Assembly (NCBI RefSeq): GCF_030295385.1
Contig: NZ_AP027079.1
Span: 2,418,001-2,482,000 of the forward strand
Length of the DNA: 64,000 nt
Source of the DNA: Geothrix oryzae
GTDB taxonomy: Bacteria; Acidobacteriota; Holophagae; Holophagales; Holophagaceae
Direction: 5' to 3'
Shown here: positions 33,711 to 35,333 of the stretch, in pieces
Layout: the number at the start of each line of letters is the position of its first letter
Position numbering within the stretch: the stretch's first letter is position 1
Position numbers and translations under genes: made by a program
The notes under the pieces: generated by a model
What the model was told of the DNA's origin: nothing
The model's database searches: none
Seen by the model: the letters and a program-made list of their open reading frames with translations, nothing else

Positions 33711-34181
33711 TCAGGACTGACGGAAGGGTCTCTTCGTCTGGCGGAACAGGCGCCCCAGCCCCCAGGCGAGCACCACCATCGGCAGGGGAACCACCAGCAG
33801 CCAGGCCGCGCCCGCATGCCAGAGGCTGGTCCAGAAGAGGCCCAGCGCCCCCCAGGCATCCGCCTTTAGCGCCTCCTCGAGAATGGGCAGGGAAAGCGGC
33901 AGGCGCGGCGCCCCGAAGAGCCGCTCGCCTAGGCGGATGAAGGGGATGAGCAGGGCCAGCTGCAGGGGGTAGGCCAGGTAGTTGGCCACCTGCATGGCGG
34001 GCTGGTTCAACCGGAAGGCGGAAGCCACCCCCAGGCAGAGCACCGTGGAAGTGCCATACAGGGGTGTGATCCCCAGGGCCAACCCCACCGCCACGCTCCA
34101 GGCCAGGGCCTCCGGGCTGAGGCCCTTCCGGAGCAGCCCGAGCAGCGGATCCCAGATCCGGGCCTTCAGCCAGGCCCTCAT
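33711..34181 (-). CDS. DUF2062 family membrane protein
   Basis: A 156-residue membrane protein matching the DUF2062 pattern: an amphipathic start LLGLLRKGLSPEALAWSVAVGLALGITPLYGTST, then FRLNQPAMQVANYLAYPLQL and two more hydrophobic segments. The family is widespread and lacks a firm function. The start ATG 34181 begins the conserved part and has GGTGG upstream. It stands alone on the minus strand between the PadR unit and the tRNA gene. Confidence 0.8.
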   Translation of the reverse strand: MRAWLKARIWDPLLGLLRKGLSPEALAWSVAVGLALGITPLYGTSTVLCLGVASAFRLNQPAMQVANYLAYPLQLALLIPFIRLGERLFGAPRLPLSLPILEEALKADAWGALGLFWTSLWHAGAAWLLVVPLPMVVLAWGLGRLFRQTKRPFRQS

Positions 34182-34274
34182 GCGGCCACCGGCAACCCGT
34201 GGACGGGGACGACCGGCGCGGCGAGAGGGGCATGGAGGCGGCTCATGGGCCCTCAGGGTAGCCGGGCGAAGGGA

Positions 34275-34312
34275 CCTTGGCCTCCGAAGCCAATGGTCGC
34301 CGGAGGCCAAGG
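34275..34312. repeat. Inverted partial copy of tRNA-Arg inside a perfect hairpin
   Basis: Plus-strand bases 34277-34303 match 25 of 27 bases of the tRNA-Arg gene at 34375-34451 (anticodon stem-loop, variable loop, start of T stem) but in the opposite orientation. The same stretch forms a perfect 12-bp inverted repeat, CCTTGGCCTCCG / CGGAGGCCAAGG, with a 14-base loop. No cloverleaf can be completed, so it is not a second tRNA gene. Confidence 0.8.
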
Positions 34313-34374
34313 GAGCACTGGGCCTTTTCATGCCGCAAGTCGAAGGGGGGCCGCTCGGCCCCCCTTGACTCAAT

Positions 34375-34451
34375 TGGTGTACCCGACTGGGGTCGAACCA
34401 GCGACCTTTGGCTTCGGAGGCCAACGCTCTATCCAGCTGAGCTACGGGTAC
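34375..34451 (-). tRNA. tRNA-Arg (anticodon CCG)
   Basis: A full cloverleaf is drawn by hand. The acceptor stem GTACCCG / CGGGTAC is perfect, the D stem is GCTC/GAGC, the anticodon stem is TTGGC/GCCAA with loop CTCCGAA (anticodon CCG), the variable loop is AGGTC, and the T arm is GCTGG-TTCGACC-CCAGT. Discriminator A and an encoded CCA end follow. The tRNA reads CGG codons, frequent in this genome. Confidence 0.96.
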
Positions 34452-34480
34452 GAGGGGTACTGCGACTACGACGACCTTTC

Positions 34481-34509
34481 ATCATGGCCGTGAATGGGTG
34501 GCAGTTCAA
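34481..34509 (-). promoter_or_regulatory. Sigma-70-type promoter of tRNA-Arg
   Basis: On the minus strand TTGAAC (-35, 34504-34509) and CATGAT (-10, 34481-34486) are separated by 17 bases and lie 29 bases before the tRNA 5' end. Confidence 0.5.
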
Positions 34510-34532
34510 GGTCGGGGCCGGGGCGGCGCTCC

Positions 34533-35333
34533 TCAGCCCGGGCCTCCCACCGTCCGGCGCCGCACGCCGCCGTTGGTTTCGGCGAAATAGCGGCGGACGC
34601 CCAGGGTGATGGCCTCGGCCACCTTGGCGCGGAAGGCGGCCTCCTTCAGCTTCGCCTCTTCCTTGGGATTGGAGATGAAGGCGACCTCCACGAGGACCGC
34701 GGGCATGGCCGCGCCCCGGAGGACGATGAAAGGAGCCTGCTTGACGCCGCGTTCCTTGATGCCCGCCAGGCGGTTGAGCTGGCCCTGGATGGCCACGGCG
34801 AGGCGCTCGGAATCCTGGAGGAAGGCCTTCTGGGCCAGGTCGTCGAGGATGCTGGCCACCACGCTGTCGGGGCTCCCGGGGCCCGCCCCCGCCCCGGCGT
34901 TCTCCACGGCCACCACCTCGTCGTCGTCGCCCTTGCCCAGGCTCAGGAAGTAGACCTCGGAGCCCCGGGCGGCGCGGGCCCGGGCGGCGTTCAGGTGGAG
35001 GCTGATGAAGAGGTCCGCGCCCTGGGCGTTGGCGGCCCGGGCCCGGTCCCAGAGGGGGATGAAGGTGTCGTCGTCCCGGGTGACGGCGGCCTCGAAACCG
35101 GCGGCCTCCAGGCGGGCGGCCACGGCCCGGCCGATCTCCAGGGCGGCGGTCTTCTCCTTCAGGCCCCTGGGGCCCTTGGCGCCCCCGTCATCCCCGCCGT
35201 GCCCCGGATCCACCATGACCTTCAGGCGCGGAGGATGGTCCCCGGGATGGCCACCGGGGGGGGCGGGTTTGGGAGTCTGCGCCCAAGACAGTAGGCTGAA
35301 GGTGAGCACCAGCGTGCTCGGGAGTCGGATCAT
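34533..35333 (-). CDS. N-acetylmuramoyl-L-alanine amidase (Amidase_3 type)
   Basis: A 266-residue exported cell-wall hydrolase. The signal peptide (MIRLPSTLVLTFSLLSWAQ) leads to a proline-rich linker and the catalytic domain. Zinc ligands are visible as His45 in VDPGHGG, Glu60 in KEKTAALEI and His113 in SLHLNA; the catalytic Glu is in VLVEVAFISNP. It cleaves the amide between MurNAc and the stem peptide in the periplasm. A Gly/Asp-rich insert (about residues 125-150) between His113 and the catalytic Glu could be the autoinhibitory or regulatory helix region. Its ATG overlaps that of hisS on the other strand within one CATG. Confidence 0.92.
   Translation of the reverse strand: MIRLPSTLVLTFSLLSWAQTPKPAPPGGHPGDHPPRLKVMVDPGHGGDDGGAKGPRGLKEKTAALEIGRAVAARLEAAGFEAAVTRDDDTFIPLWDRARAANAQGADLFISLHLNAARARAARGSEVYFLSLGKGDDDEVVAVENAGAGAGPGSPDSVVASILDDLAQKAFLQDSERLAVAIQGQLNRLAGIKERGVKQAPFIVLRGAAMPAVLVEVAFISNPKEEAKLKEAAFRAKVAEAITLGVRRYFAETNGGVRRRTVGGPG

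Follow-up and report, generated by a model that had tools for sequence, protein, structure and literature searches.

An inverted partial copy of tRNA-Arg(CCG) beside its intact gene in Geothrix oryzae, and tRNA-linked Y-elements across the genus

Quasi-palindromes, or template-switch inverted duplications, consist of a short inverted copy that forms a hairpin and whose source lies no more than about 100 nt away. Partial tRNA copies beside intact tRNA genes are known from integrative elements (PMC4383910; van der Gulik et al. 2023, PMC9897764), and Islander, which searches for them, rejects tRNA fragments that are internal, oppositely oriented or without an integrase in the interval (PMC4383910). 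The locus described here, in Geothrix oryzae, resembles a template-switch product in that a short inverted copy lies near its source and forms a hairpin. With the tRNA fragments of integrative elements it shares a partial copy beside an intact tRNA, which in related species is a host of tyrosine-integrase elements, but it differs from them in being inverted and internal and in enclosing no element.

Within the window, the whole 64,000-nt stretch of G. oryzae DNA that was analysed, the intact tRNA-Arg(CCG) gene (34375-34451, minus strand; 77 nt with CCA, called by ARAGORN and Rfam) has an inverted partial copy of itself beyond its 3' end. A repeat search matched this fragment (34277-34303, plus strand) in opposite orientation to tRNA positions 28-54 at 25 of 27 bases, giving 27-nt inverted arms at 34277-34303 and 34398-34424 with 93% identity, and its content is the anticodon arm, the variable loop and the start of the T-stem. 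The fragment lies 71 nt from the tRNA 3' end, and the gap holds a strong, G+C-rich, terminator-like hairpin (34343-34366, minus strand; -28.7 kcal/mol for 34336-34374), which a terminator scan left unflagged and whose T-run is weak. Repeat search and folding also recovered a perfect 12-bp stem between 34275-34286 and 34301-34312, closed by a 14-nt loop (-27.6 kcal/mol, z = -4.1). The first 10 bases of the right arm (34301-34310) are a direct repeat of 34415-34424 of the tRNA gene in plus-strand sequence, so the partner arm of the hairpin is tRNA-like as well. Both the inverted copy some 70 bases past the tRNA and the perfect stem, as the initial annotation had described them, were therefore borne out.

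The best local score of the fragment was 44, and none of 300 dinucleotide shuffles of the 250-nt flank on the downstream side scored above 25. The genome is closed (3.27 Mb) and holds the fragment as a single copy, which rules it out as a dispersed repeat or the end of a mobile element; its recurrence in the sister species G017 likewise disposes of the earlier worry that it might be a sequencing error. Phage records gave weak chance matches only to the intergenic region, and in an Rfam search over the window the tRNA alone reached the gathering score. The tRNA has a probable promoter on the minus strand (TTGAAC-N17-CATGAT, 34481-34509), read from the sequence and also visible as a motif in related species, which a consensus promoter scan did not find. 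Its conserved neighbours, both on the minus strand, are an N-acetylmuramoyl-L-alanine amidase gene (Amidase_3; 34533-35333) upstream and a gene for a DUF2062 protein (33711-34181) downstream.

The order hisS, amidase, tRNA, DUF2062 is common to much of the genus, and on sequence comparison the tRNA-Arg(CCG) locus is an apparent hotspot of REARRANGEMENT. The tRNA is flipped relative to the amidase and DUF2062 genes in 12 of the 36 scored genomes (G011, G015, G020, G022, G024, G030-G034, G039 and G044); G030 and G032, both single-contig, are among them. Mapped on a three-protein tree, this distribution requires at least five orientation changes, and seven when nodes under 90% support are collapsed. 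The amidase orientation is retained in distant Holophagaceae that have the tRNA beside the amidase (L122-L129). A further anticodon-arm fragment, in direct orientation and covering about tRNA positions 22-56, lies directly past the amidase stop codon in ten genomes (G001-G005, G008, G009, G012, G025 and G031), each scoring above all 500 shuffles. One of these, G031, has a flipped tRNA, and its amidase-side fragment is placed relative to the tRNA as the inverted fragment is in the window. We nevertheless rejected descent of the window's fragment from those of other species, because its flanks show no significant similarity to the flanks of the amidase-side fragments; common descent is unproven.

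The same tRNA in relatives hosts integrated elements of 2-38 kb that carry tRNA remnants together with an integrase gene or gene fragment. The G017 element (L039:2179-5470) places 3.3 kb, in which a tyrosine integrase and a Prim-Pol are encoded, between the full tRNA and a fragment of positions 32-77; the match of this integrase does not extend to the C-terminal end of the domain. In G030, 38 kb (G030:C1:2952617-2991063) separate the full tRNA-Arg(CCG) from a remnant of positions 1-43, and a 400-aa integrase adjoins the tRNA. Smaller elements are found in G027 (2 kb, fragment 33-77, short integrase) and G032 (5 kb, fragment 1-43, truncated integron-type integrase), and in G004 two complete tRNAs flank 12 kb with an integrase inside. 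The tRNA fragments beside these elements extend to one end of the tRNA, share its orientation and break in the region of the anticodon loop. TIGR02249, the integron integrase model, scored above its cut-off in 29 of 47 genomes, and a full-length integron integrase occurs at G000:C1:581571-582515 in the window genome, as it does in most Geothrix genomes. We did not take integron integrase to be the cause: the G032 copy near the flipped tRNA is broken, and the full-length copy of the window genome lies about 1.9 Mb away.

We found that inverted partial copies are a recurrent feature of tRNA gene ends in this genome. When the 46 distinct tRNA genes were scanned for cognate copies within 250 nt, with the expectation taken from non-cognate pairs, 12 had an inverted partial copy downstream (0.33 expected), the tRNA-Arg(CCG) fragment being one of them. 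A direct cognate copy lay downstream of one of the 46 genes, and copies of either kind were absent upstream of all of them. Most of the other inverted copies correspond to the T-arm, several including the acceptor end as well, and the majority are found past the terminator. A tRNA-Arg(CCT) (L193:708-783) is followed, about 190 nt downstream, by an inverted 40-nt copy of its positions 1-39 that stops at the anticodon loop. Unlike what random template switching would predict, inverted copies thus recur after 12 of 46 tRNA genes of one genome, and always downstream.

Seven of the 12 tRNA genes, those for His, Pro(TGG), Pro(GGG), Pro(CGG), Asp, Met and Arg(TCT), carry in their 3' flanks (L077, L080, L082, L084, L060, L071 and L191) a structured unit that we call the Y-element. 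It runs from an inverted copy through a core of about 65 nt to a sense T-loop, is about 90 nt long as a whole and folds into a three-way junction whose outer stem is the cognate T-arm in most copies. A covariance model of the core, R1, gave 7-8 significant matches in the window genome, all directly after the seven tRNA genes named above, and found copies in 44 of the 47 Geothrix genomes and, in the rest of the order searched, in only six genomes. Across the genus, 105 of the 125 copies examined are found downstream of a same-strand tRNA gene, and about half of the other 20 are at or near contig ends. The first copy lies 27-93 nt past the CCA, and later ones follow in tandem, commonly at a spacing of about 126-131 nt. 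An alignment of 140 copies (A4) has two-sided changes in 19 of 23 pairs and pairing in 95.6% of cells, and no shuffle matches it on any measure. Such values are favoured by the fitting of the alignment to the model, but sliding the partner by one column lowers pairing to about 30%. The antisense strand matches its cognate T-arm far better than others (31.6 against 20.4), and among the Arg(CCG) orthologues that have a Y-element the two strands for the most part agree with whichever T-loop variant the tRNA has.

Sister species differ in Y-element content, which suggests that the Y-element is a mobile or easily recombining unit: at Arg(TCT) it is missing in G017 and is bordered in G. oryzae (G000) by direct repeats of CTGGACTCG, and at Pro(GGG) there are two copies in G017 and one in G. 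oryzae. A second hairpin element, with the ends CTCC..CCTGACG / GGCGGAGCCTC, was observed in L025 (G014), L012 and L018 and in a cassette after Pro(CGG) (L080); it lies within the D-loop of upstream tRNA copies that are truncated, and also inside a Y-element, nested in its hairpin loop. At ten tRNA loci nothing but tRNAs reached the Rfam gathering score, leaving the Y-element without a family, and a search of the literature on tRNA-linked inverted repeats and Geothrix elements found no description of it, so as far as Rfam and this literature go it seems to be undescribed. Like REP/REPIN sequences (PMC3116915), Y-elements are short, structured, multi-copy and often tandem; they differ in lying directly downstream of tRNA genes (all significant copies in the window genome, and the large majority in the genus) and in an outer stem that copies the T-arm of that tRNA. 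With integron attC sites they share the character of folded, variable hairpins with AAC/GTT near the ends, in a genus that has integron integrases, but by eye their ends read GTTCGA and not GTTRRRY, and there is no integron integrase at the locus in the window genome. The inverted fragment itself was also set aside as an attC-like site, an informal comparison by eye having found no AAC/GTT boxes in it.

Three origins had been offered for the fragment in the initial annotation: a scar of integration, a product of recombination, or a functional antisense or terminator structure. We find the second best supported, since the tRNA has flipped repeatedly and inverted partial copies follow 12 of the 46 tRNA genes, and the fragment is probably a remnant of local DNA rearrangement at an unusually prone tRNA locus, with no function today. 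Part of the tRNA-Arg(CCG) gene would have been copied in inverted orientation beyond the tRNA terminator, through a flip of the tRNA block, a tail-to-tail duplication or template switching in replication, and the bulk of it may then have decayed or been deleted until the anticodon arm was left; we infer both this molecular event and the lack of function. Consistent with such a remnant, the fragment is real, single-copy and shared with G017, where its partner arm has diverged without compensation, and it lies in a setting of tRNA flips, integrated elements in relatives and a genome-wide excess of downstream inverted copies. Against it, a tail-to-tail palindrome should have kept the terminator-near tRNA positions 55-77 as well as 28-54, yet 55-77 are missing; the flanks do not resemble those of the amidase-side fragments; and the anticodon-arm core is well preserved for debris common to two distinct species. 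An integration scar, meaning an attachment-site leftover after an element at the anticodon loop was excised or deleted, seems unlikely. The locus is indeed an integration hotspot in relatives, where the crossover of tyrosine-integrase elements falls at the anticodon loop of the same tRNA (their remnants begin at 32/33 or stop at 43), and the fragment holds the whole crossover core. That part of the idea stands, but the fragment fails all three Islander rules: true displaced fragments run to one tRNA end in the same orientation (PMC4383910), whereas this one reaches neither end (28-54 only) and is inverted, and where integrase-bearing DNA should intervene, as it does for the tRNA fragments in G017 and G030, there are only 71 bp and no adjoining element.

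A functional role, as an antisense RNA or as a terminator or attenuator acting on the tRNA or on the downstream DUF2062 gene, is very improbable. The hairpin is very stable, as its z-score indicates, the fragment is complementary to the anticodon arm of the tRNA, and it lies 94-131 nt upstream of the DUF2062 start; its G+C-rich 12-bp stem is also what an intrinsic terminator calls for, but no T-run follows the stem and the scan found no terminator-like site there on either strand. In addition, the fragment is downstream of a stronger hairpin and was not found at this position in most other Geothrix. Alignment with relatives, which the initial annotation had proposed as a check, recovered the fragment in G017 with its tRNA-like arm nearly unchanged (the anticodon-arm part is identical) but not the perfect stem: the partner arm has diverged uncompensated, folding there is no better than in shuffles, and no compensatory change keeping the stem was found in this one usable relative. 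The perfect stem is not conserved, as judged from this alignment, and is best read as a lineage-specific state of the quasi-palindrome. The absent T-run, the stronger hairpin in between and the uncompensated stem in G017 together make a conserved terminator or antisense role unlikely on the two genomes compared, and the functional proposal was not supported. It is also quite unlikely that the fragment is a degenerate relative of the antisense/Y-element system found at other tRNAs of the genome. It shares with Y-elements an antisense, cognate copy past the terminator, and in about 18 relatives the orthologous tRNA is followed by a Y-element at this place, but the fragment copies the anticodon arm and not the T-arm, and with filters off the best R1 score around it (34100-34620) was 6.6 bits, so the model rejects it as a Y-element and no core was found there. 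The link between the two consists of position and orientation only and is unproven, because the tRNA-Arg(CCG) of the window is without a Y-element.

Besides rearrangement as the probable origin of the fragment, we tentatively put forward a broader reading, which is somewhat less likely than not: that Geothrix tRNAs host an undescribed family of small (about 90 nt), often tandem Y-elements just past the terminator, whose outer stem holds the cognate T-arm in an antisense and a sense copy, both changing along with the tRNA, and that the inverted fragment is what this copying process left behind at tRNA-Arg(CCG). By itself the fragment is minor; of greater interest is the pattern in which it sits. 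The fragment draws attention to a genus whose tRNA gene ends have been repeatedly rebuilt, through flips, hosted elements and inverted cognate copies that occur only downstream. The Y-elements, which covary strongly and have tRNA-specific ends, pose the question of whether they are mobile elements that use a T-loop site or a structured RNA that acts on the tRNA.
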